Shown here piece by piece: positions 7,407-36,164 of a DNA stretch of 64,000 nt (its first letter is position 1; every line of letters begins with the position of its first letter). The stretch covers positions 1 through 64,000 of the forward strand of contig JAJVIK010000009.1 in assembly GCA_022072055.1 (NCBI GenBank). Reading direction: 5' to 3'. The DNA is from a bacterium (GTDB lineage: Bacteria; Hinthialibacterota; Hinthialibacteria; OLB16). The notes below the pieces were generated by a model, which worked only from the letters and a program-made list of their open reading frames with translations, searched no databases and was not told the DNA's origin. The translations under genes and the position numbers were made by a program.

Positions 7407-10400
7407 GTGCTTGTGAAACTTTACCCGATACCCGTGCGGCCGCGCCCCACCACCCGAGGCCGAATCTGTCCGCGGTCGTTCCAGCCCGGACTCCTTTTCG
7501 CCGCCATGATTTTTCTCGTCGGCCCACAAGACGCGCGCGCCGATTTCACCAGCTTCGGAAACTCAGGGACCCAGGCTGCGGTCACCCAGGACATCAACGG
7601 CAACGACCGCTTCCAGGGCATCCTCCCCGGCCAGATCCTGACTCCCGCCCTCCGTCTCGACCTGGACGCCACCGGGCGCGAGGGCTTCACCAAGGAAGTC
7701 CAACCCCCCGAGGAAGAGGAGCAAGCCAAACAGGACGCCGAACCGAAGACCTTCATCTTCCCGAACGACATCGCCACAGAGCTCGTTTCACTTCGCTTGC
7801 GATTCACCAACACGCGGGTCAAGGATATCGGCGCAATCGCGATTGCCCGCGAGGGCGGCGATACCTTTGTCAGCCCGGAAAACCCGCTGGCCACTTCCAT
7901 CGGTCCTTCGGGGGGGCCGCTGGTTGGGGAAGCGGATACCCTGGGCAACCGTCTCGGCGCCGCCCGCGATGGGTTGACACGGATGGGGATTTACACACCG
8001 GACGAGGATCCCATCATCGCTTACATCCCCGCCCCGATGCTGCTCAAGGATGCCTCCCATCCCCTTAATGCGTATGACACCAACTGGACGTTAACCATCA
8101 ATTTTCTGGACATCGAGGAGGTCCGCAACGCCGCCTGCAATGGGGCCTCGCTGGTGGCCGATTGCACGGATATCCCGTCATTTGTGGTCGGTACACCAGA
8201 CATTCTGGAACGATACACGAATGGGGATTTCCGGTGCGGAAATCTCACCCCCGCGAGATTGAATCCGACACTTCCTCTCGGCGCCAACGGCAACCCGCTG
8301 TATAACCCTCGCCCGACCATTATTCGAGCGGCCGGGCCGGACTCGGTTGCGTTCGGAACGTTCTACATTCTCGTGGCCCCGAGTCGCTCCATCGAGTCGG
8401 GTGACATCATCCAGGTGGAGATGGATGTCCCCGGTGACACCGAGCCGGTGCCTTCCTCCTCACTTTCACCGGAAGGCCCCCTTACCGTGGACAGCGACCA
8501 GTCCGAGTCGGAAAACCAAGACTCGCAACGTTTTGTTTACTACGATTACGGCTTCGGTGGGTTGATCCTGCGCATCCCAGACCCGGCTTGCGAGGATGCG
8601 GGCGCGGATGACACCGAGGCCGTCTGCGAGCTCCCGGCCGCGTATTTGGATACCGCCAGCCTGCCCCTTTTCCCCGGCAACATGATCGCCACCTTCGAGT
8701 GCACCCAACTGGTGGCCGATCAGGTCCCCAACCGCAAGGTGAACGATGTCCGCATCGAGATCGAAGGCGGAGTGGAGATTCCCACCCTTTTCGGGCAATC
8801 CGTGTTCCGGAACGAGATTTGGTCCCAGTTCCCCCCGGGCTATCCCCTCATTCAACGCTTTGTCGCCAATCCCGATCCGACCGATTTTACAGTCAGGACG
8901 GGTCGATCCCATCTGGATGCCTCCCTTTCCACCGACCCCTACCCCTCGCCGGAGGTCCTTGCGAGCGGCGCGCAGGAATATGCGTGGTTCGGGTTTGACC
9001 TTGCCGGCGGCTGGCACGGCGGATACGACTTCCGTTTCTCGAATCTTGTGGTCGAGGTGCAGGGCCTTGGCGAGCTGAACGAGATCCCACGGGATGGAAT
9101 AGATAACGATGGGGATGGACTCACCGATGAGCCGGGAACCGAAGACACCCCCTTCGACCGTCAGCTCCCCGGGCGCAACGACGACGTCGACTTCTTCGCC
9201 GACCTGAGGCCGGTCTCCGCCGATGCGCTGGATGGGATGGCGGTGAACGGGGGCTCGCTCACTGCCGACGAACAATTCCTCGCCGCCGCGATTCTGGCCA
9301 ACAGCGTCCAGTCCGCCTACGATGTGGGTTGGGACCCGGTCTTTTCGATCCGTCATGTTTTGGACGACGCCGCGGAATCCAATTTCAACGAACCCCTTTT
9401 CACTTATGATTTGCCGGACAAGTTCTATCGCGATGTCATGATCCCCGGATTGGCCAATCGAGACGGCCTGACCAATCGGTTCCAACCGGAGCTTGGAATT
9501 CGTCTCAATGTTCTCCGTCAGCAAAACCCGGCTCGGTCCGAGTATATCGCCTCGCTCCTCCGCATCGGCGCCCTCCAAAGCCGCTTGATCGATGAGGATG
9601 GCGATGGCGAGGCGATGTCTCCGGAAATCCTCGGCTTCAAGATCGCCGACGGTTTGGACAACGACGGCAACGGCTTGATCGACGAGGGGATCGACGAGGA
9701 GGTCGAAAACGGCATCGATGATGACGGCGATGGCCGCATCGACGAGGATGTCAATTTCGTCCCCGCCTTGCTGAACATCGACGAGGAAATCCACAACTTC
9801 TTCGTGGACAACTTCGGGGGACGAGCCGGGGCCTACGACGAAGGGATCGATTTCCTGTTCATCGATTACAACCACAACGGCGTTTACGACGACGGCAGGA
9901 ACGACCAACTTCCCCCCAACAGGGATGAATTCCAGGGAACTGCGGGAACCTCGCCGCTGGTCGAGGGTGACCCCTACACCCCGCCGATCGCCTACCCGAT
10001 TGACGATGACCTGGATGCCGAAAGCGAGGATGGAAACCCCCTGACCGCGCCGCCGGTGATCGTGGACGCCAGCGACAACAACGGCGACGGGTATGTGGAC
10101 AACGGCGCCAATGAAGATGTCCGCGACTTGGTCTTCTCCGATTTCGGAGACTATACCGAGAACTTCTTCTTCGCGCCGGTCAACGAATCCTGGCTCTACC
10201 AGGACACCGGGGATTCCCGGTTTATCGCGGCCGGAAGGCTTCCCGGCCTGGATGATCCGATTGTCCAACCGTTTACCCAGGATGACATACCTTTCCACAT
10301 CCCCGCGGTCCGACTCAACGACCCGGACCGATATCTGCTCGGCTACAATTTCGCGGATGGCGACTCGCCGGGACCCTCGATCGACATCACCAATGAGGGG

Positions 10401-12926
10401 CAGTATGACTTCTTCCTCGGTTTCCGCATCCCGGAAAACCGCCCCATCGGCGAGGATTTCCAGGTGACCCTGTATCCGGGCGGATTGGGAGTGGAGTTTG
10501 ACACCCGGAGTAACTTTAACTCGGGCTTCTTGTCTTATCCGATCACTGGGGATGACCTTCTTCAATGCCGCTTCCCGGGCCTGTCGGGCCTTCCGGGACA
10601 GGGCAGCGGCGAAAGCTTTGTACCGCCACTTACCTCGCCGGCGAGGCCGACCGGTTATCAGATCACCAAGCGCCAGTTTGCTCACCTGCAAGTCGCGGAC
10701 GCCTTTGGCTACCAAAGCCCGGTTGAGGTGGATGGCGGCTACCGGGGACTCCCTTACCTGGACAACCTTTCGGCCCCCATGCCCGTGATCGCCATCAACC
10801 ATGTGGGCGCGCGCGAAGGATCGGGCGTTTCCGAGGAGAACGCCACCCTCAATTCGGTCCGTGTCAATTTCGACCCGATCCGCCTGCCGGAAGTGGACAG
10901 CGCTTGGAACCCGACCACCAGCGGGGGGGACCTCCGTCCGCTCTCCAATTCCAGCGACTCGGGGGTGGCGCTCTATCTCGACAGTAAGACCTCCGGTGCA
11001 CAGGGCGAGTTCGACCAGTCGGACGCTATTGTTCCCCTCAACCTCGAGACCCTCTCCTGGAACCAGGATCCGACCGATCCGGTGGTTCGCGCGGGCGGGT
11101 ACTATGTCGTTCTCAAGCCCTCTCAGGGAATCCGGTTGCCCAAGAGCGATTTCACCGAGATTCCCAGCTCCGACAACATCGCGACCCTGGATCCAAACCG
11201 GGGCTATGATCTCTTCGTGTGCGTCAAAACCAACACCTACACCAAGGCCCGGACCGCTTTCCGAGCCTTTATCCGACCGGGCGACATCACCTATGTCAAC
11301 GGCCGGAATACCATCGGCTCCGGCGTGGTCACCCACCCCTATGTGAGCAATGTGCCGATCCTCTTGAACGCCGATGCCGGCGCGAACCGTCCGGTCATTC
11401 CCCTCAGCGACTCCATCCCCGTCCTCGGAATGAACATGCTCGATGTCAACACCACCTTCGGCAGTCGCCCGGCGGGTTGGTCCATGCTCAATGTCCTTTT
11501 CCAAAACAACCCGGTGGGGGATTTGGCCTTCACCCCCTCGGATCTGCTCCCGATGCGCTCGGATATCCTGCGCAACATCCCGCTCGACCCCGCGGAGGAC
11601 AACGACAACAACCCCAACACCTTCCCGCTCCCGGATGGGATCGATAACGACGACGACGGGCTGACCGACGAGGGGGTCAACAACACGCTCGATTTTGACC
11701 TCTCCCGTTACACCACCCTTTCCGGAGTCGCCATCTTCCGGGACATGCCGAACAGCGACCGGAATGGTCTCTTTGACGACCCCTTGGACCCCAATGTCCG
11801 CGTGCCGGACCTTCCCGTGTTCCTTTCCGGCGAGGAAAACTTCGCGTTCCCGATCGGCACCGAAGCGTATATCTCCCTCGCGCTTGACCATGACCCGGTG
11901 GACATCAACGCGCCCGGGAAGGGCGATCCGATTGACCCCGCTCCGTTTGAGACCGTGCCGACCAACGACAACGGCGCCAATCGCGGCTCGGACTATTTCC
12001 TGGTGATCCGCACCAGCAAGTCGATCAGCCAGGGAGATGATTTCCAGGTCCGATTGACGACCCACGGGACCGTGATTCACACCAACGACGGCGGCACGGT
12101 CGGAATCGTGGTGGGCACCTCCTTCGGCTTCATGCCGGGCGCCACCACCGGGCTCGGACCGATCTTCCCCGAGCGGCAACCCTATTCCTACGATCCGCTT
12201 CGCAACGCGCGCCTTGTTCCGTCGCTCGCGCCTGTCGCGGAGGAGCCGCTTTCACCGGGGAATCTCCGGATTCCCGGAATCTCCGCGTTCGACACGGATC
12301 CCCCCGACCCCAGGCTGCGCTTCCTGGGTATCGACTTCACCCATGAGCTTTTCCCAATCCGGTCCCCCTTCAATTTGTATGAGGCTTACAAGCCGTTTCT
12401 TTCCAACGTTTACGTGAACACCGAGGATGGGGATGATCTTCCCAACCTTCAGTTCCTCCTCCCCACCTTTGATGAAACAATCGGAACCGACCTCGATATC
12501 GATCCGGGAACCGTGTTCCTCCGCTGGGCCGATATCGATGAGGACAGTCCGGACGCCGAGGTGACCTTGGTCTATTTCCCGGTCCTGATCGATCCGATGT
12601 TCGGGGAGCTCTTCCCGCTCACCCCCACGGATCCGCGATTCACCTTCACGGTGATCAGGGGAGTTTCACGGGGTCTTGATCCGAATTCGGATATTGATGA
12701 TTTCACGATTGTCCCGTACCAGGACCAGCTCCTCATCACGGACAACGAAAACGTGGTGGGAGGCCTCGGCACGGATATCTTTACTTGGGACGCGCGACTG
12801 GTTCCCCCGGGCCTGTATCGAATCGCCGCGTTCCTCAATGACTTCAGCAACCCGCCGGTGGTGGTGGTCGGGGGGAGAATCTTGATCGAGAACCAGCGCC
12901 CCGAGCTGATTCTCACCCAACCCTAA
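7407..12926 (+). CDS. Giant secreted modular protein with TSP3-like calcium repeats
   Basis: About 1839 residues. The N-terminus is basic and then hydrophobic (PGLLFAAMIFLVG), with probable signal cleavage at DARA-DF. Starts at GTG 7407 or GTG 7413 sit behind GGGAG/GAGGTG; a TTG at 7386 only lengthens the leader. The body is mostly beta-rich with no catalytic motif. Three sites carry acidic DGIDNDGDGLTDE-type loops (about 9094, 9650-9750 and 11634), the calcium-binding TSP3/EF-like pattern. At least four copies of a recurrent module combine an SGVALYxD-type strand with an acidic loop and an RTSxxxxxGDDFQV strand; the clearest is near 11990-12060. The same module recurs in the gene at 17991. 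Role inferred: calcium-stabilised extracellular or surface scaffold. The subtilisin gene follows after nine bases. Confidence 0.8.
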   Translation: MLVKLYPIPVRPRPTTRGRICPRSFQPGLLFAAMIFLVGPQDARADFTSFGNSGTQAAVTQDINGNDRFQGILPGQILTPALRLDLDATGREGFTKEVQPPEEEEQAKQDAEPKTFIFPNDIATELVSLRLRFTNTRVKDIGAIAIAREGGDTFVSPENPLATSIGPSGGPLVGEADTLGNRLGAARDGLTRMGIYTPDEDPIIAYIPAPMLLKDASHPLNAYDTNWTLTINFLDIEEVRNAACNGASLVADCTDIPSFVVGTPDILERYTNGDFRCGNLTPARLNPTLPLGANGNPLYNPRPTIIRAAGPDSVAFGTFYILVAPSRSIESGDIIQVEMDVPGDTEPVPSSSLSPEGPLTVDSDQSESENQDSQRFVYYDYGFGGLILRIPDPACEDAGADDTEAVCELPAAYLDTASLPLFPGNMIATFECTQLVADQVPNRKVNDVRIEIEGGVEIPTLFGQSVFRNEIWSQFPPGYPLIQRFVANPDPTDFTVRTGRSHLDASLSTDPYPSPEVLASGAQEYAWFGFDLAGGWHGGYDFRFSNLVVEVQGLGELNEIPRDGIDNDGDGLTDEPGTEDTPFDRQLPGRNDDVDFFADLRPVSADALDGMAVNGGSLTADEQFLAAAILANSVQSAYDVGWDPVFSIRHVLDDAAESNFNEPLFTYDLPDKFYRDVMIPGLANRDGLTNRFQPELGIRLNVLRQQNPARSEYIASLLRIGALQSRLIDEDGDGEAMSPEILGFKIADGLDNDGNGLIDEGIDEEVENGIDDDGDGRIDEDVNFVPALLNIDEEIHNFFVDNFGGRAGAYDEGIDFLFIDYNHNGVYDDGRNDQLPPNRDEFQGTAGTSPLVEGDPYTPPIAYPIDDDLDAESEDGNPLTAPPVIVDASDNNGDGYVDNGANEDVRDLVFSDFGDYTENFFFAPVNESWLYQDTGDSRFIAAGRLPGLDDPIVQPFTQDDIPFHIPAVRLNDPDRYLLGYNFADGDSPGPSIDITNEGQYDFFLGFRIPENRPIGEDFQVTLYPGGLGVEFDTRSNFNSGFLSYPITGDDLLQCRFPGLSGLPGQGSGESFVPPLTSPARPTGYQITKRQFAHLQVADAFGYQSPVEVDGGYRGLPYLDNLSAPMPVIAINHVGAREGSGVSEENATLNSVRVNFDPIRLPEVDSAWNPTTSGGDLRPLSNSSDSGVALYLDSKTSGAQGEFDQSDAIVPLNLETLSWNQDPTDPVVRAGGYYVVLKPSQGIRLPKSDFTEIPSSDNIATLDPNRGYDLFVCVKTNTYTKARTAFRAFIRPGDITYVNGRNTIGSGVVTHPYVSNVPILLNADAGANRPVIPLSDSIPVLGMNMLDVNTTFGSRPAGWSMLNVLFQNNPVGDLAFTPSDLLPMRSDILRNIPLDPAEDNDNNPNTFPLPDGIDNDDDGLTDEGVNNTLDFDLSRYTTLSGVAIFRDMPNSDRNGLFDDPLDPNVRVPDLPVFLSGEENFAFPIGTEAYISLALDHDPVDINAPGKGDPIDPAPFETVPTNDNGANRGSDYFLVIRTSKSISQGDDFQVRLTTHGTVIHTNDGGTVGIVVGTSFGFMPGATTGLGPIFPERQPYSYDPLRNARLVPSLAPVAEEPLSPGNLRIPGISAFDTDPPDPRLRFLGIDFTHELFPIRSPFNLYEAYKPFLSNVYVNTEDGDDLPNLQFLLPTFDETIGTDLDIDPGTVFLRWADIDEDSPDAEVTLVYFPVLIDPMFGELFPLTPTDPRFTFTVIRGVSRGLDPNSDIDDFTIVPYQDQLLITDNENVVGGLGTDIFTWDARLVPPGLYRIAAFLNDFSNPPVVVVGGRILIENQRPELILTQP

Positions 12927-12935
12927 GAGGAACGG

Positions 12936-15900
12936 ATGCCGAGCATGCCGAAACCATACACGATCTTTCCCGACCACTCTTCCGCTCGCCTCCGCGCAGC
13001 GTGGCTCGCCGCGGCGCTCGTTGCTCTCATGCTCGGCGCCCCGGAGGCAACGCGGTCGGCCTCCGCTCAGGAGATTGGGACCCTGCTGACCGCGAGCCCC
13101 GGCTACTCTAAGGTGCTCGCCCCAGATGAACTGCTCAGCGCCCTCCAAAAGGGGGGTGGCTCCGCTCCGGTCATCGTGAATTTGAAGTCCCGCTCGAAAA
13201 CACCCAAGACGGTCAACTGGAAGGACAAAGCCGCGGTCGCCGCGCTGAAATCAGAAGCGAAAGCGGTGGAGGATCAGGTTATCGCCAAGCTCGATCCCGC
13301 CAAATCCAAGATTCGCCACCAGTTCCCGCTCCAAGCGGGATTCTCCTGTGAGATAACGGAAGATGCCCTGGCCGAGCTGCTCGTGGATCCGTTGGTGAAT
13401 TCGGTGGAGCCGGTTCAGTTTCTCGAACCCCATCTGCGTCAGGGCATTCCGTTAATGAACGGCTTCGAGGCGCGGGCCTCATTCGATGGCAGTGGAGTGG
13501 CGGTCGCGATCTGCGACACGGGAGTAGATGTCAATCATCCGAAACTTGGTGGCGGCGGCTTCCCCAACGCCAAGGTGGTCGCGGGCTTTGATTACGGCAA
13601 CAATGATGGGGATCCCCGTCCGGGGCCGGTCGCGCCCGGGAACGCGCATGGGACCTCCGTGGCGGCCATCACCGCCGGCGACCCCGGCTCCGTGGGGGAC
13701 TATATCGGCGGGGTGGCCCCCAAGGCCTTGATTGTCGCTTACAAGATCTCAACCGACGCGGATAATCTCGCGCCGAACGATGCCATCATCGCGGCCTGGA
13801 ACAACGCGGCCGAGAGGAACACTCTTGGAGGAGGCGTGGCCGGCGGCGTCCCGATCGTGGCCATGAACACCAGTTTCGGGGGAGGGCAATTCTTCGCGAA
13901 TTGCGATGGTGAAAGCGCGGCTCTTACGGATGCGGCCGACGCCGCGACAGGCGCCGGAATCACCCTGTTTGTTTCGTCGGGCAACAACGGTTTCTGTTCT
14001 TCGATGGCCTCACCCGCCTGCCTCTCACAGGTGATATCCGTCGGCGCGGTTTATGACGCCAACATCGGAGCGCCGGGTTTCTGCATCAGCCAAGCCTCCT
14101 GTCTTCCCACAAATCCCAACGCGGGTTGCCCGACTGGTGAAGGGCTGTATTTCGAGCCTTCCACCAAGGCGGATCAAGTGACCGCCTATTCCAATTCCGC
14201 GCTCTTCTTGGGCTTGCTGGCTCCTTCCCACAACGCCTACACGGCGGACATCGTGGGTTCGGGCGGATCCACCTCGGGCGATTACACGACCAACTTTGGC
14301 GGAACCTCGGCGGCGGCGCCCTATGCAACCGGGGCCGCCGCGATTATTCAGTCAGCCGCTCTAGAGCTTCTGGGCAGGCTTCTCAGCGTGGACGAACTCA
14401 CCAATTTGATCCTTGACACGGGCGATGACATCACCGATCAGCGCAATTCGTTGACCACCCCACGAGTCAACATCGGACGCGCGATTGAAGTGCTCCTTGC
14501 CGAGGAGCCCACGCCCACGCCGTCCGGACCCTCGCCCACCCCCACCCCCTTCGTCGACTGCAATACTATCTTCCCCATCCGCGGCGAATACTTCGATCCG
14601 GAAAACGATGTCACTGTCGATCTCTACATGGAGCCGTTCTCAAAATTCATCGCCCTGGCCAACGAGGATGTCGAGCAGGCCAGCGACCCCGAGCGCATCC
14701 GCGAGGACGCCCTCTCCATCCCCGCATACATCGCCTCGCAGGTCCTTCCGCCCAACACTCAGACCCTCGAAATCGCCACCGGCATCTTCCTGCCCGAGGG
14801 CGAAGGGTTCCTCGAATACGATCTCGCGTGCGCCCAACTTCAACCCTTGGTCAACAACGACCTGCTGCTCTTCGGAGAGCCGTACGTGATCCTCGCCGTC
14901 TATTCCGACCTCGTTCCCCGCTCCGGGGATGGTGTCTCTCCGCCCGAGGTGGTGTACTTCGGAACCTTCTCGCCCGGCACCTTCCTGTTTGACCCGAGCG
15001 ACTTCGAACCGAAACCCTCGCCCACCCCAACCCACACCCCGCTCCCCAACGAGGTCAGCCTCGAGCTCGACACCGCGGTCGACCCCGACACCGAGCTCCC
15101 CCTTGATCCGGAGCTGCGCGCCGCCGAACTGCTCGACATCTCCTGGTTCGCGCAGGTGTTTCTCCCGAACGCGACTCTCACCCTGTATTTCGACCGCAAT
15201 GACCACCTCGAAATTCGCGGGCCCTTGAATGAACACCTCCGCACAGTCACCGCGGGCGAGGGGCAAGACGCCAGCGCCGTGGTCTCCTTGGGCGAAACGA
15301 TTGTCAACGACGGACTCTCCGGCTTTGACTTCGGTCCCATCGACCTCACCTCCGACCCTCGGTTCCCGCCGCCCCCCCCCACCGGAAAAGTCCAGGTCGG
15401 AAGCTTCAATCCCGACTCCTTCCGCTGGGATTTCTCCCAAATCCCCGCCGGGAGGTTCTTCATCTACGGCATCCTGGACAACACCAACGGGCAGCGAGTG
15501 GTGGATTACGCCCCCTACGCGATCTTGGCCAAGGCCAAGCGCTGGCCCGTGCTGATCGGCACGGCCGTCGATGACCGCTTTGTCCATGGCGTGGCGATCC
15601 ATGACCTGGTCACCTCGGCCTCGGAGCTCGATGTCGTGGCCGTCGCGCAATCCGGCGTGCTGCGCGTCCTGGACTTCCTCGGTCGCGCCTGGGGCCAATA
15701 CTCCGTGGACCTCGATGTCACCGTGGACACCGCCCCCGCGGCGGCGGAACTGGATGGGGATGAGGAGCTCGAAATCCTGCTTGGAACCGACCAACTCGTG
15801 AGCGACGAGAACCCCATCTTCGCGAACCGCAACGCGCTGCTCGCCATCGACGCCAATTTCCGTCCCAAGTATGAAGCCCTGCGGACAGCGGTCGGGGCCG

Positions 15901-17255
15901 GGAGCCTCTCCCAGGACCAGATCGAAACCCTTGTGGCCCAGAATGACTTGACCAACGCGATTCATTTCCTCCCGGCGGGGCACGCGGTCTTCCACACCCC
16001 CTCCATCCGCGACATGGATGGCGATGGAGTGAAAGAAGTCCTGGTGGTGACCCGCGCCCTGGCCCCGGGCGGCGACTCGCTTATCCAAACTGTTTCCTTC
16101 AGCGCGGCGGTCACCGAAAAACCCACGGTTGAAACCACCACTCTCGCACCCGGCGCCGGATTCCTGGGCGCCCCGGCCGTGGGGAATCTGGACAACAACC
16201 CGGATGATTTTGAGGTGGTGGTCGGGAGCCAGTCAGGAAGAATCTATGTCTTCGATCCGGACTCGGCGACCATCGGCGCGCCGATCCTCACCCTTCCCGG
16301 TCCGACCCTTCGCTCCGCCGCTTTGGTCGATGTGGATGGAGACGGCATCGAGGAAATTGTCATGGCGGTCAGCGAACGCGACCGCATGAGCCAGGCGCGC
16401 ACCGAACTCCACTTCTTCCGCGCCAATGGCCAGCCGGTGCTCTCGCAAACCCGCATCTTCCGGCCCACCTTGCTCTACGATTCACTCTCCACTCCGGTGG
16501 TCAGCCGTCTGTTCCCCAGCGGCGCGGTCCCCCCAGGCTATTCCAACGACTTTGTGGCCCTTTTCTCCACGCGTAACACCTTTGTCGGTATCAATCTGGC
16601 GAACGGGCAGCAGGTGTTCCACTTCCAGCCCCCCGGAACCGACCAGGCGTTCGGGTCCTCCTCGGCGGTGATCGGACAAGCCGACCCCTCGAAGGCGTCC
16701 TTCGAGATTGTCCTCGGCGGAGGAAGAGACACTCGCGGAAACCTCTTCGGTTGGTCATTCAACGCCGCTTCAGGGCAGCTGGAAACCGCGGCGGGATTCG
16801 ACACGCACAACGAGCCCGTTGTCCTTGGGGATTTCTTCCCCAGCAGCATCCTCGGGTCCCCGGAGATGGTGGACCTGGACGGCAACCGCAGGACCGATGT
16901 GATCTACACCAACGAGGGGGGCTATGTCGACCGCTTTGAGGCCCCCGACAGCGCGTTGTTCCCCGCGGATTATATCCCCACTGACTTCCCCTGGCCCGCG
17001 TTCAAGCACGACCAGGCGCGAACCGGCTCGACCTCCGGGAATGTGGTGCCGATTCAGCCGTTCCTTCCGGGCGATGTGAACCGGGATGGCGTTGTGGATG
17101 AGAACGACCTGTTCACAGTCAGCAAGTCTTGGGGCCGCCCGGTGGGCTTCGAGCTCCGGCGCGGCGCTTTAGATGGCTCCTCAGGAGCCGATGATGATTT
17201 CGGGATGAACTCTCAGCGCTTCCTGCTGCGGGTTCTGAGCGACATGAAGAAGTAA
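12936..17255 (+). CDS. Secreted subtilisin-like (S8) protease with FG-GAP-like repeats and dockerin
   Basis: A 1439-residue preproenzyme. A signal peptide (residues 15-45, cleavage near SASA-QE) precedes a propeptide of about 120 residues. The S8 catalytic triad is complete: D194 in CDTGVDVNHP, H238 in NAHGTSVAA, S458 in GGTSAAAPYATG, with the oxyanion Asn in SSGNNG near 350. Pro/Thr linkers, beta-domains and then a run of VCBS/FG-GAP-like blades follow (DMDGDGVKEVLVV, DVDGDGIEEIVMAV, DLDGNRRTDVIYT). The C-terminus holds a dockerin-like calcium loop, GDVNRDGVVDENDLFTVSKSW. It probably matures or degrades extracellular proteins and may process its giant neighbours (inference). A GAGGA site precedes ATG 12936. 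Confidence 0.9.
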   Translation: MPSMPKPYTIFPDHSSARLRAAWLAAALVALMLGAPEATRSASAQEIGTLLTASPGYSKVLAPDELLSALQKGGGSAPVIVNLKSRSKTPKTVNWKDKAAVAALKSEAKAVEDQVIAKLDPAKSKIRHQFPLQAGFSCEITEDALAELLVDPLVNSVEPVQFLEPHLRQGIPLMNGFEARASFDGSGVAVAICDTGVDVNHPKLGGGGFPNAKVVAGFDYGNNDGDPRPGPVAPGNAHGTSVAAITAGDPGSVGDYIGGVAPKALIVAYKISTDADNLAPNDAIIAAWNNAAERNTLGGGVAGGVPIVAMNTSFGGGQFFANCDGESAALTDAADAATGAGITLFVSSGNNGFCSSMASPACLSQVISVGAVYDANIGAPGFCISQASCLPTNPNAGCPTGEGLYFEPSTKADQVTAYSNSALFLGLLAPSHNAYTADIVGSGGSTSGDYTTNFGGTSAAAPYATGAAAIIQSAALELLGRLLSVDELTNLILDTGDDITDQRNSLTTPRVNIGRAIEVLLAEEPTPTPSGPSPTPTPFVDCNTIFPIRGEYFDPENDVTVDLYMEPFSKFIALANEDVEQASDPERIREDALSIPAYIASQVLPPNTQTLEIATGIFLPEGEGFLEYDLACAQLQPLVNNDLLLFGEPYVILAVYSDLVPRSGDGVSPPEVVYFGTFSPGTFLFDPSDFEPKPSPTPTHTPLPNEVSLELDTAVDPDTELPLDPELRAAELLDISWFAQVFLPNATLTLYFDRNDHLEIRGPLNEHLRTVTAGEGQDASAVVSLGETIVNDGLSGFDFGPIDLTSDPRFPPPPPTGKVQVGSFNPDSFRWDFSQIPAGRFFIYGILDNTNGQRVVDYAPYAILAKAKRWPVLIGTAVDDRFVHGVAIHDLVTSASELDVVAVAQSGVLRVLDFLGRAWGQYSVDLDVTVDTAPAAAELDGDEELEILLGTDQLVSDENPIFANRNALLAIDANFRPKYEALRTAVGAGSLSQDQIETLVAQNDLTNAIHFLPAGHAVFHTPSIRDMDGDGVKEVLVVTRALAPGGDSLIQTVSFSAAVTEKPTVETTTLAPGAGFLGAPAVGNLDNNPDDFEVVVGSQSGRIYVFDPDSATIGAPILTLPGPTLRSAALVDVDGDGIEEIVMAVSERDRMSQARTELHFFRANGQPVLSQTRIFRPTLLYDSLSTPVVSRLFPSGAVPPGYSNDFVALFSTRNTFVGINLANGQQVFHFQPPGTDQAFGSSSAVIGQADPSKASFEIVLGGGRDTRGNLFGWSFNAASGQLETAAGFDTHNEPVVLGDFFPSSILGSPEMVDLDGNRRTDVIYTNEGGYVDRFEAPDSALFPADYIPTDFPWPAFKHDQARTGSTSGNVVPIQPFLPGDVNRDGVVDENDLFTVSKSWGRPVGFELRRGALDGSSGADDDFGMNSQRFLLRVLSDMKK

Positions 17256-17282
17256 TCCCCGAAGGGGGAGGAGGCGCGACAC

Positions 17283-17852
17283 ATGGGTAAGAATCTGATC
17301 GGGATGGGGCTCCTTACGGTTCTGGCGATGTCTGTTCAGGCCACCACGGTCGCCCCGCTTTCCCTGGAGGAAATGACCCGTCGGAGCGATTCCATCGTCG
17401 TGGGGAAGGCCGTGAGCATTACCTATGGATTCAACAACCGCGCGGGCTATCCTGAAACCCGGACAACCTTTACAGTGGAGAGTGGGTTGTACGGCGCTTC
17501 CACGGGGGAATCCGTGGTGGTCTGCCTTCCCGGCGGCCCGGCGGGGAACGGGTTGGTGACCGTGGTGCCGGGCATGCCCAAATTCAAGGTCGATGAGCGC
17601 GCGGTTCTGTTCCTGGTCAAGGACAAGTCGCGCGATGTGACCATTCCCACCGGCCTGGAACAAGGCGTCTTTCGGATCAAGGTGGACCCGAAGACGAAGG
17701 AGTCCTATGTTTTCAACCAGAGTCGAGATCTCTCGGCCATCGGACAGTCCGCGATCTCCGGCGCCGCCTCGACCAAGGATGCGTCTAAACAACGTTTGTT
17801 CGATTTTGAACTGAAGGTGCGTCAACTCACCGAAAAGGTGAAAGACCAATGA
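17283..17852 (+). CDS. Small secreted protein of a family seen beside matrixin-like proteins
   Basis: 189 residues with a signal peptide ending near VQA-TT. The mature part begins LEEMTRRSDSIVVGKAVSI, followed by TTFTVESGLYG and GGPAGNGLVTVVPGMPKFKV, then a FLVKDK strand. From memory, this VVGKV...GG...PGxPxF layout recurs in uncharacterised exported proteins near matrixin genes, and here the next gene starts with a matrixin-like domain. No catalytic residue is evident; it could be an inhibitor, prodomain or chaperone of the neighbour (inference only). A strong GGAGGAGG site lies eight bases before the ATG. Confidence 0.6.
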   Translation: MGKNLIGMGLLTVLAMSVQATTVAPLSLEEMTRRSDSIVVGKAVSITYGFNNRAGYPETRTTFTVESGLYGASTGESVVVCLPGGPAGNGLVTVVPGMPKFKVDERAVLFLVKDKSRDVTIPTGLEQGVFRIKVDPKTKESYVFNQSRDLSAIGQSAISGAASTKDASKQRLFDFELKVRQLTEKVKDQ

Positions 17853-17864
17853 TCGAGCGGTCGC

Positions 17865-17890
17865 TCGGGCCTGATCGAGGCCCGATTTGA
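17865..17890 (+). terminator. Probable intrinsic terminator
   Basis: TCGGGCCT/AGGCCCGA form a perfect 8-bp stem around GATCG, followed by TTTGACTCT. The T-run is short, so termination may be partial. It separates the small secreted protein from the matrixin-headed giant gene. Confidence 0.5.
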
Positions 17891-17990
17891 CTCTCAAGGG
17901 CAATCATTGTTGAGCCGGCCGATGGGGTCCCAAGGGAAGGGATCCACTGACCGGCTTTCTGACTTAGCAGAGATGGGGGACCGTATATTC

Positions 17991-20900: not shown

Positions 20901-23900
20901 AAGGCGCTGGATGTTTTTATCCCGTATGTTCAGGTCGATGGAATACGTGTCTCAAACAACCTGTCGGAGGTGATTGCGTTCCAGGATCCGACTCGCTCCA
21001 CCCTGGTGAACGGGCGCACGCTCCGACCCATTGATAGCACTACTTCTCCGAGCACGGCCCTCGTTGAGGTCCGTCCCTCACCCACGATTCTCTTGAAGGA
21101 CATGGTCAACCCCGCCGACCCAAGCTCCCGGGGGAACATTATCGGAAGCTCGGCCGAAGGCGCGCCGCCGCTCGCCGTTCTGGGGATCGACGCCGAAGAC
21201 TCGGGAAGTTCGGCCCTGGTCTCATACAATGCTTCGGGTAGCACCGACATTCTTAGCGGCGTGGATGTTGTGAACACGGGCCTTGTGCTTGATTCGATTC
21301 GTGTTTTCATTGACCCCGTGGATTCGCCCCCTGAGATTCCGGCTCCCCCGCAACAGTTTATCGCCAATATCTTCGGGACCGCCCCGCCCTTCACATTGAG
21401 CCAGCAAACACTGATCGACTCGGACACGATCGACTTGCCGGACCGTGGAATCGAGATCATGGTGGATGACGACACCACCACGGGGGATTTCCTCGATAAC
21501 GACGGCGATGGGCTGGTGGACGAAGAGCTCCTCAACGACACGGATGATGATCTGGATGGAATTACCGATGAGGGCGACCAAGGGGATGGGGATGCCCCCG
21601 GCCTGAACGGACAGTTGGACCCCAACGATGATGTGATTGCGTTTCTCCAATTCAACGACATCAATCGGTTTACAACAGTCTACCCGTTCACCTCCTATGC
21701 GGCCGCTCCAGTGGTTTCCACTACCGGCGAGGGATCTTTGTTGATCGATTACACCGACCTGACTGGGAATTCCCAATCCGAGGAGGCGTTCGCGTTTGAC
21801 TTGGCCGCCGAACCCCTTTCGCAGATCTTCTTCGATTCGGTCTTCTTCCGCATCGACCACCCAGTCCTCGTGAGTGTTCCGGCGCAAGCAGCACCCTCGG
21901 TGGGAGCAAATTTCAGCCCGCCGTTTCAGTTTCCCCACGGTTTTTACATCGACTATGGGGACGATTTGACCACGTTGTTTGATGCCGGCACGGAAGTCGT
22001 GAACTACTACTTCAGAACGGAAATCCCCAACTCGAACGGCATCAATGCATTGATCGGGCCCGACTTCTTTGTCTCCGTGCGCATGGGACCGGACGCGCTG
22101 AACGGGGATTCTTTCCGGGTCCGAATCCCGGAGAACGGCATCGGCTACAGCGCGTACCGATCCGTGACCCCAGTGGGATTGGATGTGAGGCCCGGCGCCG
22201 CGCCGGTGGGAGACTTCTCCTCCTCGCGAGTTCGAGTTGGGACCGACAATTTCGTCCCCTCACTCACGTACCTCAAACCCATTCGACAAAACAACCGGGC
22301 GCGCGAGGTTCTCGTGGATGGACGCGTCGAGTATGAATTTGAGGTCGAGTTCACTTTTGAGGATCCGGATAACGACGCCCAAGTCGATTTCTTCTGGGAC
22401 ACCGACCGCTTCGGCCTGGACGGCAAGGAGATTCCCCCGGCCTACAACCAGTCCACCACGAATATCATCGATAATGATGGCGAGCGTCCCATGCGCTTCA
22501 TCTTCCGCTTCCCCGGTGAGCTCGCCCGCAAGACCTTTGCTGAGGCCTACATCTACGGGATAGTGACGGATGACGTAAACCCGCCGAAGCCGATTTACGC
22601 CCCCACGGCGATCATTCTCGACGCCACCAGCCGGAGCACCTACAACCCGGCCGACTTCATCCTCGCGGATAACCTCGGCCAGATCTTCGGCACCGGCGGA
22701 GCCAACGCCAACATCCCCGAATTCCGTCAGAACCGCAACATCATCCGCGACTTCGAGCTGACCCCCGCCGAGCGCGGCGGCCTTTACCTCCACGGCGAAG
22801 GGCGCGTGGTCCTGCGCGGCGACCCGGACCCCTGGGCCGATTTCGTGCGCACCGGCATCGATGTGACCTTCCCGCAAGGCGCCGCGCCCTTCATGGGAAT
22901 GGACCTCTTCCGTGACCTCGAACCGGACTTCCGGAACAACGGCTTCTACCTCCTGGATGCCATGGGCGGAGTTCACCCGGTTGGAGCTGTCCCCCCGGCG
23001 GGGTTCTCCCTCGCCGGAGCGCCGATGCTCGGGACCGATCTCGCGCGGGACATGGAACTGACCGCCACCGGGCTGGGGTTGCTGATCCTCGATGGAACCG
23101 GCAGGACCTACGCGCTGGGCGATGCCCCCCAAGCCGCCGGCGCGCCCGCTTTCTCGTTTGATATCGCGCGCGATGTGGTGATCGCCCCCGGCGGCAACGG
23201 CTTCTACATGCTGGATGGATTCGGCGGGATCTACACCATTGGTGACGCGCGGGCCTTTGACACCACCGACATCCCCTTCTTCCCGGGGTCGGATGTGTTC
23301 CGCGGCATCTCGGTGGTTCCCGGCGGCGCCGGACTGCTCGTCTTGGACCGCGAGGGTCAAGTCTATGGCGCGGGGGATGTCCTCCTGGGACCGAATCCCG
23401 TGCCTCCCAATGCCATCTCCGAACCGGCCGGAGTCAACCCCGGCGACCCGATCGTGTTCACGCCGCCGAACAATGTGGTCACCGGCGAGCTCGGCGGGGC
23501 ATTCATTGATATCGAGTCGGCGGGCACGGGAACTCTCCCTCAACAAGGGACGGATATCCTAGAATCGCTTTGTCGAGCCATCGTTCTCGAAGATCTGCAG
23601 GGTGTGTTGCGCCATTTCTCGACCGACTTTGTCGACGATCAAGGGCACGGTCTGACCGATCTGAGCTCGGTGTGGAAGCAATTCTTCGACTATTTTAAGG
23701 TGATCAGTTGTCGCATCGGTCGGGACAGCGTCCGAGTGAGTCAGGACGCGACCGGATTTGTCGTTTCGGCCAGCTTTGAGATCGCGGTCCTCAACCCCTC
23801 GCTGACTGTGTTCGCGCCCGCGGATGACCCGCTGATCCTCGATGTCGTGGATGATGACTTTGACCCGGGTCCCTTCATCTTCGGACCGGTGCTCATCGAC

Positions 23901-24962: not shown

Positions 24963-25061
24963 TGAGGACTGCCCCGGGAGACCGTTACCGGGCCGGCCGA
25001 GGAATCGTTTGATATTGAGTTAGGCTTCCTGAATCGAGGGGAATAGGGAGGGTTTCAGTTC

Positions 25062-25994
25062 ATGGTGTTCCGGGTTGTCGGCGTTGCCCTGGCCCTCGCG
25101 TTGGTCGTGGCCGTGGTGGTCCTTGTGGGCTCCCCCTTTGGCGCAAAAAGCGAGGTGGAGCGTTTTCCTGAGGTTGCGCTCGTACCTCAGCCCCAGCCCA
25201 TGGATGTGGAAATCAACGACCGCCTGATCGAACGTTTCATCGCCGAGGACCGTGGCCTGCGCGCTGCTCTCGAGGGTGGCCCCGCGGTCTCTTCCTCAAC
25301 GGGAGAAGCTCAGGAAGAAGCGAGCGCTCCCCCAAAGAGCGAGAAGGAAATCATCTTCGAGCTGCTTGCTCCCTGGGTCTACGTGAAGCATCGGAGGATC
25401 AACGGGATCGAAGAGGCCACCTTCCACAACCAAAGCAACCAGAAATCGACTCCCTGGTTGCCGGTGGGCGGCACTCTCCAGGGCGCGACGATCATCAGCC
25501 TGGATTCCGACAAGGCGGTCCTCCAGCTCGGCTCCGCCACCGAAGAGTTGCTTTATGTCCCCCTGAACCCCCCGCCGTTTGACCCGTCGGTCCCACGCAC
25601 CCCCGAGCAGGTCGCGGACGCCCAGAGGCGATATTACATGCTTCACCATCGCCGGTTCCTCGTGATGGGACGTAAGTACAACGAGCTTGCGGGTCGTCCC
25701 AGGGACATGCAGATTCCCTCGCGGCAGGAGCAGCTCCAGCAGATGGACTCCTATCTTGCCGACATGGAGAAGCGAGTGGACAACATGGTCCCCGTGGAGC
25801 CGCCCGACCCGGCCTTGGTGGATACAAGCCAGATGACCGAGGAGCAGCTCAGGGCGTACCAGACTTACCTCGAGAATATCAGTCGGACCCCCGATGAGGT
25901 TCGCGCCGCGCTCGCCGAACAGCGTCGAAAGGTTCAGGAACGAATGGCTCAAGAGGGACAGTCCCCCTCCCCAGGCGGAAGCGGACAACAGTGA
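25062..25994 (+). CDS. Membrane-anchored GspC/PilP-like protein, paralogue A
   Basis: 310 residues with one N-terminal membrane helix (VVGVALALALVVAVVVLVG), then a Ser/Ala-rich linker. A small beta-domain near residues 100-170 (LPVGGTLQGATIISLDSDKAVLQLG) has the G(T/V)L...II...AVLxxG pattern of the GspC homology region or PilP. The C-terminal 120 residues are charged and probably helical. Known relatives connect inner-membrane and outer-membrane secretion or pilus parts. Assignment rests on pattern, not on a full-length match. It follows the giant exoproteins, and the paralogue downstream has the same architecture. GGGAGGG lies nine bases before the ATG. Confidence 0.5.
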   Translation: MVFRVVGVALALALVVAVVVLVGSPFGAKSEVERFPEVALVPQPQPMDVEINDRLIERFIAEDRGLRAALEGGPAVSSSTGEAQEEASAPPKSEKEIIFELLAPWVYVKHRRINGIEEATFHNQSNQKSTPWLPVGGTLQGATIISLDSDKAVLQLGSATEELLYVPLNPPPFDPSVPRTPEQVADAQRRYYMLHHRRFLVMGRKYNELAGRPRDMQIPSRQEQLQQMDSYLADMEKRVDNMVPVEPPDPALVDTSQMTEEQLRAYQTYLENISRTPDEVRAALAEQRRKVQERMAQEGQSPSPGGSGQQ

Positions 25995-26055
25995 CCCCCA
26001 CGGGGGGACCCTCACCGCCGAGGAGCGGCCCCACGCCTTGGCCTTGCCTCGATTC

Positions 26056-26970
26056 ATGCGCACGCCCCTGATCGCCCTGTCAGCCATTGCCGCGGTCGCC
26101 GTGCCGATCCTTGTCTACATCGCGGGGGATCGGGGTATCGAACCGCTTCCACGTAAACCGATTGAAATCCCGATTACTCTTCCCTTCCCGGACCTTTTGG
26201 CGCGTGAGTTGAACCACATCGTCGCGGAGGTCGATACCGAGAAGATTCTCGCGGCCACGACTGATGCAGCGTTTTCGAGCACGGTCGGCGGCGCCTCGAC
26301 GGCGGGGGAGGCGGCCTCCGAGCTTGTGGCGTCCGACTCTCCACCGGTGGACAGCCGACTCCTGGCCGACTCATTGTTCCTTGAAGAGCGCTACAGCGAG
26401 TTCGCGTACCTGGGTTCGGCCGGGAGCATCTCAGGCAAACGGCTTGGAACCTTCCACACCATCGCCTCGGGTGACCGCAAGACCGCGCTTGAGGGGGGAA
26501 CCATCCACATGCTCCACATCGACAAGATTGAGGAGGATCATGTGGTCCTTTCCCACGGCCAAGCCGAGCCGGTCAAGAAACCCAGAATCACGCTGGAGAT
26601 CGATGACCGCCCGGAATCGGAGATCTCACCCGAGGAGAGGCAGGCGCGCGAAACCCGTTACAAGGAGCTCTTCGGGAATCGTCACCTGGTGGAGGCTCGC
26701 CGCCATGCTCGGGAAAACGGCCTGCCGGAGGTTCAGGCCCCCACTCCGGAACAGGAGGCCGAGGCTCGTAAGCGCTACATGGAGACCTATGCGGTCTTCT
26801 TTCAGAAGCTCAAGGCCGGAGACCCCACCGCAAACCCGCGCGAGTTCCCAATACCCGACCAGAATTTCGAGGAGAACGTTCGGAGATACTTTGAAACGAA
26901 TTGGCCGAACCAGGTGGAGGTCACCACGGACCCCGGCAATCCCTCCGATCCGTCCAGGAGGGAAAACTGA
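26056..26970 (+). CDS. Membrane-anchored GspC/PilP-like protein, paralogue B
   Basis: 304 residues from ATG 26056: an N-terminal membrane helix (LIALSAIAAVAVPILVYIAG), a low-complexity linker, then an HR/PilP-like beta-domain (LEGGTIHMLHIDKIEEDHVVLSHG). The C-terminal region (about 220-300) is charged and helical. The layout matches the preceding protein, although identity is low, suggesting an old duplication that gives two partners of one envelope complex. The start is uncertain: the frame is open further upstream inside the previous gene, and no strong Shine-Dalgarno precedes ATG 26056. The stop lies two bases before the next ATG. Confidence 0.5.
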   Translation: MRTPLIALSAIAAVAVPILVYIAGDRGIEPLPRKPIEIPITLPFPDLLARELNHIVAEVDTEKILAATTDAAFSSTVGGASTAGEAASELVASDSPPVDSRLLADSLFLEERYSEFAYLGSAGSISGKRLGTFHTIASGDRKTALEGGTIHMLHIDKIEEDHVVLSHGQAEPVKKPRITLEIDDRPESEISPEERQARETRYKELFGNRHLVEARRHARENGLPEVQAPTPEQEAEARKRYMETYAVFFQKLKAGDPTANPREFPIPDQNFEENVRRYFETNWPNQVEVTTDPGNPSDPSRREN

Positions 26971-26972
26971 GG

Positions 26973-28151
26973 ATGCTTTGCCTGATTCTCCGCCTCACAA
27001 GAGCCTTCCCCATTTCGCTCTTGGTGTTCTTCTACGGCTGCGCCTCCGAACCCAAGGGGCCGCCTCCAGCTGAGCAGGCCAAGGCCGCCTCGGAAACCAC
27101 CCCCGCTCGCGTCGAGCCGACCCCGACCGCGCCTGGAGGCGCCGAAAACCCAGCCGACGTGACCGTGGCGGTGGTTGGACCCTACAAGATCACCCTCGCG
27201 GACCTCACCTTGCTGACCAAGGAGCGCGAGGCCGCCGCTCAGCCGGCGATGGCCACCATGACCGTCACGGATGTGCGGAGGCGGATTCGCAAGGAGCACC
27301 TGGAGGAAATGGTCGAGCGGCGGCTCTTGATCCTCGGGTCGAAGGAGCATCCCGAATGGGTCAAGGGGGGCTCGGTGGAGCTGGAGGTCAAGAAGCGGCT
27401 CGCGGAACTAGGGCCGGATGAAGTCGAAAGACGCAGGAAGATTGCCAACGTTCCCAAGGAGAGTTTTCTTGAAGAGTTCCGCCGATATGTCCGAGAGGAG
27501 CTGATGCAACGGGAGATCCTCCGTCGCGAGGTGAATGAAAAGGTGGTTGTCACCGACGAGGAAGTCCGCGAACGGTACGAACGTGACCGCGAGAAGACTT
27601 TCCATCGCCCCCAAAGCTGGGCGGTCCACCACATCGACCGGTTCCTCCCCAGGGGAAAGGCCGCCGAGCTTCCCGCGCTGATGGAGCGGATGGAGGCGCT
27701 CCGCTCCGAGGTGGCCTCCGTCATCGCGTCGGCCACCGCTCCGCGAGCCAAGGCCGATCTCATGGTTCCCTTCGTGAAGGCCCACAGCGAGGCCCCGGAT
27801 GCCCAGACCGGATATGCCTACATCTATGACACCGAGGGGCTTCGATTCGATCCTGAGTTTGTGAACCGTGTCCGCGGCTCCACTCCGGGCGAACTCAGCC
27901 CGGTTTTCGAACTCGCTGGGGACGAAACCCGGGTCGGAGCCTGTTTCTTCCTCACCTTTGACCGCAAGGAAGGAGTCTACACTCCGACCGAGAGCGCGCT
28001 TCGCACCGTGAAGGCGCTCCTCCGCCGTGAAAAGGGCGAGGCGCTTCACAACGCCCTATTCGAGAGGCTGCGGCGCGATTATCCTGTCCGCGTGTTTGAG
28101 GATAGACTCTTCTCGGGGCTGGAGGATGCCTCCGGCCAGCCGCGCCCATGA
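26973..28151 (+). CDS. SurA/PpiC-like periplasmic foldase lipoprotein
   Basis: 392 residues. A membrane-targeting N-terminus (ISLLVFFYGC) gives a plausible lipobox with C27. A SurA-N-like helical region follows (TVTDVRRRIRKEHLEEMVERRLL; KESFLEEFRRYVREELMQREIL). The segment NEKVVVTDEEVRERYERDREKTFHRPQSWAVHHI is the usual entry into a PpiC/parvulin domain. The C-terminal part then reads like a parvulin fold (GELSPVFELAGDETRVGACFFLTF). Such proteins escort secreted or outer-membrane proteins across the periplasm. Here it sits between the GspC-like pair and a Wzz-like gene. It overlaps the next gene by four bases (ATGA), and GGAGGGAAAACTGAGG precedes the ATG. Confidence 0.65.
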   Translation: MLCLILRLTRAFPISLLVFFYGCASEPKGPPPAEQAKAASETTPARVEPTPTAPGGAENPADVTVAVVGPYKITLADLTLLTKEREAAAQPAMATMTVTDVRRRIRKEHLEEMVERRLLILGSKEHPEWVKGGSVELEVKKRLAELGPDEVERRRKIANVPKESFLEEFRRYVREELMQREILRREVNEKVVVTDEEVRERYERDREKTFHRPQSWAVHHIDRFLPRGKAAELPALMERMEALRSEVASVIASATAPRAKADLMVPFVKAHSEAPDAQTGYAYIYDTEGLRFDPEFVNRVRGSTPGELSPVFELAGDETRVGACFFLTFDRKEGVYTPTESALRTVKALLRREKGEALHNALFERLRRDYPVRVFEDRLFSGLEDASGQPRP

Positions 28152-29449
28152 GTCCCGGCGCCGCCAAGGTTGACCGCGAAGTGACCTTGGTCCACCTCCT
28201 CGAGGTGGTCAAGGGCCACTGGAAGGCCATCGTGGCCGTCGGAGTCCTCACCCTACTTCTCAACGTCGGAGTCTTTCTGGCGCTTCCGGTTGCCTACCAG
28301 GCCGAGTCGTCCATCCTGCTCTCTCGGAGTCGGAGCAAGGCCGAGCCGACCGGAATCGACACCACCTCGGTGGGATCGGATGCCTTCGCCCTCGCGCTCC
28401 AGAGCGGGGAGGTGATGGAGAAGGCCCTCAAGAAGTTCAACCTGGACCAACCTCCTTACGAATATGATGTTCAGGAGCTTCAACAGACCATCAGCATCTG
28501 GGCGCTCCGCCGCGAAAACACCCTCCAAGTCCGAGTTAAACTGAGAAACCTCCAGGAGGGAACCCAGAAGCTCGTCGCGGATATCGCCAACTTCTTCCTG
28601 GAAGAGGCGGACAAGCTCGCCAAGGAACTCCTGAAGCAAGACATCGAGCGCTCCGTGGCGCTCCTGGAGGAGGAGTACAGGCGCTCCGAGCAACGGCTGG
28701 AGGAGTATCGGAAGCACTACCAGGCGGTCAAACTCGGGGCCAAGATCGAAAGCCAGCGCAAGGTCCTCGATTCCCTCGGTTTCGGGCTTTCCAAGCTCAT
28801 GGAACAATTCTCCATCGCCCAGTACGACTACGCCAACAACTCCGCGCTGGTCGAGGCTCTGGATCGCCTCTTGGCTGATGAAAAGGAACTCCTTTCCGTG
28901 CGTCGCGCCCTGGAGGAGGAGCCGGCATTGATGGCCGCCTACGCGGAAAAGGCCGGGGTGGGGGCGAGCTCGCTGTATAGCGCCACTTCAACCGTGCAAG
29001 AGCCGAATGAGGTCTACATCGCCCTGCGCGCCCTCCGTGATGAGGCCCAAGGGAAGATGGCCGGGGCCAAGAACGCTCTTGAGACGCTCCCGGATAAGAT
29101 TCAAGGGTACAAGGATGATCTGGAGGCGACGGAGCGGATCCTCAACGCGAGTGAGGAAGCGGAGCTGTTCTGGAAGGGAAATCTGACCGCCGCTCAACTG
29201 GCCTTCCAGGAGGTCTATGAGCGCCGGGAAGTGGCGGCCATGGCGATTGTGGCCGACCGGCAAGACCTGCTCACCTGGGTTCGAGCCTATCCTCCGCTCC
29301 GACCGACCGGTCTGCCACGTCCCGTGTTGGCCACCGCCTCGGCGGTTCTCGCCATGGCGGTCCTGGCCGTCTTGATCCTGTTGCTGGAGGTCTTCCGGGC
29401 CATCGGAAGTTCAGTAACCGGGGCAGGGAAGGAGTCCGCCAGGGCTTGA
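28148..29449 (+). CDS. Wzz/GumC-type polysaccharide co-polymerase without kinase domain
   Basis: 433 residues. A first membrane helix near 27-50 (AIVAVGVLTLLLNVGVFLAL) and a second near 395-420 (VLATASAVLAMAVLAVLILL) frame a large periplasmic domain rich in coiled coil (170-260 and 300-370). This is the Wzz/PCP topology that sets chain length of exported polysaccharides. No Walker motifs follow TM2, so it is not fused to a BY-kinase. The PNEVYIALRA-type segment before the second coiled coil resembles GumC-like proteins, but the usual Pro-rich motif near TM2 is weak. It closes the exoprotein operon with a four-base overlap to the foldase gene. No glycosyltransferase or Wzy lies nearby. Confidence 0.65.
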   Translation: MSPGAAKVDREVTLVHLLEVVKGHWKAIVAVGVLTLLLNVGVFLALPVAYQAESSILLSRSRSKAEPTGIDTTSVGSDAFALALQSGEVMEKALKKFNLDQPPYEYDVQELQQTISIWALRRENTLQVRVKLRNLQEGTQKLVADIANFFLEEADKLAKELLKQDIERSVALLEEEYRRSEQRLEEYRKHYQAVKLGAKIESQRKVLDSLGFGLSKLMEQFSIAQYDYANNSALVEALDRLLADEKELLSVRRALEEEPALMAAYAEKAGVGASSLYSATSTVQEPNEVYIALRALRDEAQGKMAGAKNALETLPDKIQGYKDDLEATERILNASEEAELFWKGNLTAAQLAFQEVYERREVAAMAIVADRQDLLTWVRAYPPLRPTGLPRPVLATASAVLAMAVLAVLILLLEVFRAIGSSVTGAGKESARA

Positions 29450-29568: not shown

Positions 29569-30234
29569 ATGAACACGAGGAAATTCCTAGGATGGGCCGT
29601 CATGGGGGTCCTGATGGTTGGCTGTACGGCTTGGGCGGGCGAGCCAGGGGATGCACCCGCGCCGGTCATTGAGAAGAGAACGCGCGAAGTGGCCGCGCCG
29701 GAGCCGGAGTCGCCGATGCCGATGGTGACCCGCGAGGCGCCGGCAGTTGGCGAGCCAAGCAGGGCGTGCTGCACCAAGACCTGCTATCGACCGGTCTGGA
29801 AGACGCGCGATATCACCTGCACCCGTCGGGTTTGCCGCTATCGGGATGAAGTTCGGACCTGCAAGGTCCCGGTGTACCGTCAGGAGCAACGGACCCGCAC
29901 GGTCACCTGCTGGAAGACCGAATGCGAAACTCGGATGCAGCAAGTGACCCAGTGTGTCAATCGGATCGATGAGTGTGGTCGTTGCTGCCCGGAGATGGTG
30001 ACGTGCGAGGTCCCGATCCAGGTTCCTGTCCGGGTCCCCTACGAGGTGGAGCAGGCTTACACGGTCTGCGTGTGCGACTGGGTGGAGAAGGAGTACACGG
30101 TGAAAGTTCCGTATTATGACACCGAGGAGTTCACCTGCACCCAGCAGTACTGCGAGATGGAGCCGTACGAGGTGGAGGTTGCCTGCTGCGTGCCCTGCTG
30201 CAACCCGTGCTGCAACACCTGTTGCGTGAATTGA
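29569..30234 (+). CDS. Exported Cys-rich protein (25 cysteines), VPVYR-repeat type
   Basis: 221 residues with a signal peptide; cleavage near AWA-GEP, or lipid modification at the VGC cysteine. The mature chain has 25 cysteines including six CC pairs and ends CCVPCCNPCCNTCC. Repeated VPVYR/VPYY and RTCxV segments recall the beta-repeat envelope proteins of Planctomycetes. Possible roles are a disulfide-crosslinked surface layer or metal binding; neither is shown. An AGGAGG site lies six bases before the ATG. It is probably a single-gene unit with its own sigma-28-like promoter and a terminator at 30307. Confidence 0.7.
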   Translation: MNTRKFLGWAVMGVLMVGCTAWAGEPGDAPAPVIEKRTREVAAPEPESPMPMVTREAPAVGEPSRACCTKTCYRPVWKTRDITCTRRVCRYRDEVRTCKVPVYRQEQRTRTVTCWKTECETRMQQVTQCVNRIDECGRCCPEMVTCEVPIQVPVRVPYEVEQAYTVCVCDWVEKEYTVKVPYYDTEEFTCTQQYCEMEPYEVEVACCVPCCNPCCNTCCVN

Positions 30235-36130: not shown

Positions 36131-36164
36131 GGACCACACAGTTTCCCCGGGACCTAGAGATTTC

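Follow-up and report, generated by a model that had tools for sequence, protein, structure and literature searches.

Does a gene for a giant exoprotein keep company with genes for its own export and display, and if so, which of its neighbours are these? The question is raised by eight plus-strand genes in a 64,000-nucleotide stretch of bacterial DNA (hereinafter, the window), which corresponds to contig C10 in a genome of 5.86 Mb and 32 contigs. An earlier note, made from the sequence alone, had read these eight genes as one self-contained system for exporting, maturing and displaying large proteins. All eight open reading frames are indeed present between 7386 and 29449, with the lengths given in that note, which counted P0001 from 7407 and P0004 from 17991, and they follow each other at short junctions (Table 1). 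Judged by comparison with related genomes, these frames are real genes rather than chance frames, because a gene corresponding to each of them, P0001 aside, occupies the equivalent position in a relative. The gaps measure 9 bp (P0001/P0002), 27 bp (P0002/P0003), 54-138 bp (P0003/P0004) and 99 bp (P0004/P0005); the frames of P0005 and P0006 overlap, leaving a gap of 61 bp if P0006 starts at its likeliest ATG, the P0006/P0007 junction is 2 bp with the likely start of P0007, and P0007 and P0008 overlap by 4 bp (ATGA). In the gaps 17853-17907 and 24963-25061 no terminator-like site was found on the plus strand, and it is plausible that the eight genes form one transcript. A sigma-70-like site lies ahead of P0001, such sites occurring across the region about as often as expected by chance.

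Table 1. Genes of the locus and sequence features within them (positions in the window).
Feature	Positions	Strand	Remarks
Sigma-70-like site ahead of P0001	7261-7290	+	10/12 matches
P0001, giant secreted protein	7386/7407-12926	+	1846/1839 aa
P0002, secreted subtilase	12936-17255	+	1439 aa
P0003, small secreted protein	17283-17852	+	189 aa
P0004, core giant exoprotein	17907/17991-24962	+	2351/2323 aa
D-rich pair of P0004, residues 1187-1241	21465-21629	+	DDDT..D.DGDGLxDEE..N..DDDGDGLIDEDxGD
Beta-propeller-like region of P0004, residues 1596-1832	22692-23402	+	
P0005, core connector	25062-25994	+	
HR domain of P0005, residues 91-168	25332-25565	+	confident part of AlphaFold model
P0006, second tandem connector	25894-26970	+	likely start ATG 26056
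P0007, core SurA/PrsA-like foldase lipoprotein	26901-28151	+	likely start ATG 26973
P0008, core Wzz/PCP-type protein	28148-29449	+	

So which of the eight genes belong together? The data set holds 13 relatives, two in the family of the window's genome (f1) and 11 in four other families of the same class, and the homologous loci were compared after ORF calling in these relatives; the next genomes listed beyond them have only the domain in common with the window's genome. On this comparison of sequences, the core of the module is four genes, those for the giant P0004, the connector P0005, the foldase P0007 and the Wzz-like P0008. The order giant-connector-foldase-Wzz is kept in G001, G003, G006, G007, G008, G009, G010, G011 and G013 and is seen in pieces in G002, G004 and G012, where contigs are cut; the sole exception among the intact loci is G005, in which the giant and the connectors stand together and the Wzz gene lies some 200 kb away. 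This order persists across families in which the sequences have diverged far and other genes flank the locus (in f2 they encode LpxB, TPR and SecDF proteins, in f5 a histidine kinase and a YfhO-like protein). A profile of the connector finds matches in all 14 class genomes, including all 8 of the near-complete ones, and in 0 of 372 genomes outside the class, so that the module is class-wide and, in this sample, class-limited; the Wzz profile is likewise strong in 14/14 class genomes. The conserved gene order that the earlier note had anticipated is thus found for the four core genes across families. An eight-gene conserved unit has to be rejected: P0002, P0003 and P0004 occur together in the window's family only, beyond which P0001-P0003 lie outside the module.

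The three accessory genes can be characterized to different extents. P0001 has a signal-peptide-like N terminus and three DxDxDGxxDE motifs, and a repeat of approximately 165 aa, for which there is no Pfam model, links it to P0004 and to a 3949-aa protein on another contig (C3) of the same genome; its repeats recur in a 2825-aa protein that adjoins the locus on the upstream side in G005. No syntenic orthologue of P0001 was found among the relatives, the G001 contig being cut at that place. P0002, which had been described as a dockerin-tagged subtilisin, is a subtilase (PF00082, E 2.4e-28) with the D-H-S triad in place (DTGVDVNHP, HGTSVAAI, GTSAAAPYATG) and with FG-GAP-like repeats; the dockerin part of that description is backed by no more than a C-terminal half motif of one loop with a sub-threshold Pfam E value of 0.016, and the locus is missing among the dockerin matches of the genome at E<=0.001. 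Among the relatives, only G001 and G002 have P0002 upstream of the giant, and the idea that this protease matures the cargo is not supported, given that most of the class has a module with no such protease. Proteins of 189-196 aa resembling P0003, identified by inspection and position only, are encoded at the corresponding position in both G001 and G002.

The giant itself comprises a degenerate matrixin-like N-terminal domain, a carboxypeptidase-regulatory-like domain, repeats, a D-rich pair, a beta-propeller-like region, a weakly suggested NTF2-like region and a conserved C-terminal tail. The zinc motif of matrixins, HExxHxxGxxH, is lost (REVGHFCGLNN in the window, REIGH in G001); HExxH occurs in none of the core giants, an intact HELGH being found in a neighbouring protein of G005, and the giants of f2 and f5 seem to be devoid of the matrixin-like domain. 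The D-rich pair is the densest stretch of invariant residues in the giant across the class and, if we may guess from its sequence, a likely Ca2+ site. The propeller-like region invited the idea of a secretin-sorting domain because giants adjoin two secretin operons; it turns up at about a dozen further places in each genome, and this idea was rejected. The fold of the repeat region could not be used, the model being too poor (pLDDT 56) and its structure matches meaningless. In the G001 assembly, the giant is broken into two overlapping frames, and the giant of G005 (C1:584497-589929) contains one in-frame TAA.

The crucial question, then, concerns the nature of the connector. P0005 is predicted to consist of a TM helix (residues ~3-22), a Pro-rich linker (23-88) that is disordered in the model, an HR domain (91-168) and a helical tail (181-297). 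In the AlphaFold model, built from three sequences, the block means over residues 91-168 are mostly 83-91. The top Foldseek match of this model is the HR domain of GspC from the GspC-GspD complex (3oss_C, probability 1.00, TMt 0.69), ranks 2-4 are three PilP structures, and PilP 4av2 and GspB 4wfw (0.87) are among the first fifteen. The E-values given by Foldseek are weak, starting at 0.025; we attribute this to the domain making up only 78 of the 310 residues of a model that is disordered in part. A chance fold match appears unlikely for this modelled domain because independent PDB entries agree with one another and with the Pfam result: HofP matches were obtained for six connector orthologues (E 2.7e-5 to 8.3e-3), one of them above the curated cut-off. 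A sequence-only PDB search with the connector gave matches at chance level. The description of these proteins as GspC/PilP-like is borne out by the Pfam matches and by the predicted fold of P0005, whose four top matches are GspC and PilP. Gene order and the GspC-like fold, the two points on which the earlier note had staked its proposal beforehand, have both been checked: the core order is kept, and the predicted fold is of the GspC/PilP kind.

GspC is built of a TM segment, a Pro-rich linker, an HR domain, another linker, and a PDZ or coiled-coil domain (PMC3169554). The connector has in common with it the single TM, the Pro-rich linker, the HR beta-domain and the variable C-terminal domain, and the HR domain of GspC is the best PDB match of its model. 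There are differences as well. The connector gene adjoins that of a giant cargo-like protein, whereas gspC lies in the gsp operon with the secretin and the ATPase; the PDZ domain is replaced by a long helical tail in which Y..G..F motifs recur; there is no match to T2SSC (PF11356) for the connector or anywhere else in the window's genome, even at E 10; and the connector comes in two tandem copies in some families. In the window the second copy is P0006, a diverged paralogue of P0005; there are two or more connectors in f1, f3 and f4, and one in f2 and f5. We therefore do not file the connector as a GspC, from which it differs in Pfam family and in operon context, and say only that it may work in the manner of a GspC-type adaptor. 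HofP, the only recurrent Pfam match, is the E. coli counterpart of PilP of type IV pili, with which the connector shares the predicted fold; PilP, however, is encoded in pilMNOPQ, and the module here contains no pilus gene.

The module encodes neither an outer-membrane channel nor an ATPase. The claim that the system is self-contained thus fails, since without a channel of its own a secretin from elsewhere must serve. Secretins are present in 14/14 class genomes, and the window's genome has four, all away from the module, none of which could be matched to the connector in particular. The secretin on C2 was rejected as the partner, its close relatives being found in the window's family only. 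On C3, the secretin sits in a pilM/pilN/pilQ/pilT-like operon, directly downstream of which is the 3949-aa giant (C3:78847-90696). The secretin frame at C6:181954-192582 encodes 3542 aa, with a GspD-type N0, 32 tandem Secretin_N domains and then the secretin domain, and implies a very long periplasmic channel; we know of no secretin near this length. The 172-aa protein encoded just before it reads, by eye, like a short GspC, and in the operons of the C6 and C3 secretins alike there seems to be, again by eye and with no useful Pfam match, a short HR-like protein belonging to the operon. Just downstream of the 3542-aa secretin, C6:194270-201226 encodes a protein of 2318 aa that ends in a propeller-like part and has repeats resembling, by eye, those of beta-helices. 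Long forms of this secretin occur in G001, where two frames measure 1763 and 1628 aa, and in G002, with at least 954 aa read in a frame of up to 2170, none as long as 3542 aa being seen in other families. Several families of the class also have an operon that encodes a cohesin-domain protein, a PilM-PilN fusion, a TPR protein and a TPR-secretin fusion (G003 C59:60063-69210 and relatives; C6:264001-284000 in the window's genome), and the class genomes carry many dockerins.

The HR domains of GspC, GspB and PilP have all been reported to bind the N0 domain of secretins (PMC9239104). The reading that we prefer, to which we would assign a probability of roughly 0.4, is that the module is dedicated to the export and display of a single cargo, with a GspC-type adaptor docking one giant onto a secretin, a SurA-like lipoprotein helping, and a co-polymerase-type protein providing a scaffold or a link to glycan. 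What has been established is the gene order, the class-wide presence, the predicted HR fold and the predicted topologies; docking, cargo recognition and the route of export would, we infer, run as follows. The giant, which has a putative signal peptide, would cross the inner membrane by Sec and would be guarded against misfolding in the periplasm by P0007. P0005, together with P0006 where present, would be the adaptor, anchored in the inner membrane and provided with a long linker, with its HR domain docking on the N0 of a secretin encoded elsewhere and its helical tail, in place of the PDZ or coiled coil of GspC, binding the giant. The specific cargo would thereby be coupled to an outer-membrane secretin and released to the surface. 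For P0008 we infer a ring of the polysaccharide-co-polymerase type, which might scaffold the complex or link the displayed giant to a surface glycan. The adaptor reading gains from the secretins in all class genomes and from the lack of a T2SSC match in the window's genome; counting against it are the missing secretin and ATPase genes, the HR-like proteins that two secretin operons seem to have already, the weak Foldseek E-values of a model built from three sequences and, for P0008, the lack of a precedent. A bolder version, in which the module is a new envelope-spanning display apparatus, universal in the class, where the GspC-type adaptor and the Wzz-type ring hand the giant to the secretin and fix it on the surface, strikes us as improbable.

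The alternative that survives best holds that the connector is a scaffold like GspB or PilP that assembles or anchors the secretin, the giant being its structural partner, at the surface or in the periplasm, rather than a chosen cargo. GspB is likewise a bitopic HR protein, varied in length and composition, that assembles and anchors the secretin (PMC9239104); the connectors resemble it in being bitopic HR proteins with varied tails, three of them also touch the Pfam T2SSB family weakly, and in f2 and f5 each giant comes with a single connector, which suggests that the two form a set pair. This alternative leaves unexplained why the gene stands by the giant and the foldase rather than by a secretin, and we consider it somewhat unlikely. 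GspB itself is mostly paired with gspA and serves the T2SS; there is no gspA-like gene here.

The two remaining core genes bear on a different alternative. P0007 has a lipobox Cys that is invariant in 10/10 orthologues, a sub-threshold SurA_N_3 match in Pfam and a match to the solved periplasmic protein 3rgc (E 3.8e-6), and its orthologue in G006 matches the peptidylprolyl isomerase PRK00059 (1.1e-15, below the cut-off of that model). It seems to share with SurA/PrsA foldases of the 3rgc kind the SurA_N-like and parvulin-like regions and the periplasmic location; it differs from them in being a lipoprotein tied to one locus, and in its parvulin signature glycines, which by eye are changed. P0008 was rightly called Wzz-like: its PF02706 domain scores 29.9 bits against the Pfam cut-off of 25.5. 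It has two predicted TM helices (20-38 and 398-416) around a coiled-coil periplasmic part and no kinase domain; with Wzz/EpsF co-polymerases it shares the two TM helices, the PCP N-terminal domain and the Pro-containing stretch before TM2. Unlike them, it has no polysaccharide genes nearby, and its conserved partner is a giant exoprotein. We found no earlier case in which a Wzz-type protein takes part in the export of proteins.

Could P0008, then, be a true co-polymerase in a glycan-centred surface system, with the giant as its surface partner and the HR domain as merely a common fold? Its score and the resemblance of its orthologues to CspC, XrtA and EpsF chain-length proteins speak for this, as does an exosortase encoded elsewhere in the genome. 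The pairing of a foldase with a Wzz protein recalls exosortase-linked EPS loci, where PpiC-type and chain-length proteins pair. Against this stand the neighbours scanned in two families, which are the LpxB, TPR, SecDF, YfhO-like and histidine kinase genes listed above with no polysaccharide genes among them, so that an EPS locus was rejected. The genome also has a separate Wza beside another Wzz (C2:440633-442506), and P0008 is therefore an additional Wzz, encoded at a distance from those polysaccharide genes; an exosortase is found in only 4/14 class genomes, and a link to exosortase/PEP-CTERM was rejected on that count. Altogether, the glycan-centred alternative looks unlikely. Finally, that these are co-transcribed envelope genes with no joint mechanism is very unlikely, even with the Wzz gene of G005 some 200 kb from the rest and with interactions among the products that are putative, given that wherever other families have an intact locus, save in G005, the order is the same although the flanks are not.

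How type II secretion chooses its cargo is an old question that, to our knowledge, is still open, no common signal being known. If dedicated export and display is the correct reading, this question becomes directly testable on a pair of one cargo and one adaptor that is present in every sampled genome of the class. The module would then be a case of a type II adaptor whose gene accompanies that of its cargo, and of a co-polymerase-type protein active in the handling or export of protein, and would show how uncultured bacteria may put proteins of more than 2000 residues on their surface.

Three other open reading frames in the window deserve mention. On the minus strand, 42001-45381 encodes a 1126-aa protein that has two propeller-like stretches related to P0004 and no Pfam match. 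Some 120 bp past the module lies a Cys-rich, lipoprotein-like frame of 221 aa (29569-30234, plus strand), also with no Pfam match. The frame at 36105-37751 (plus strand) encodes a secreted-looking protein in which, by eye, a trypsin-like stretch (GGSSGSP) and a tail rich in Thr and Pro can be recognized.
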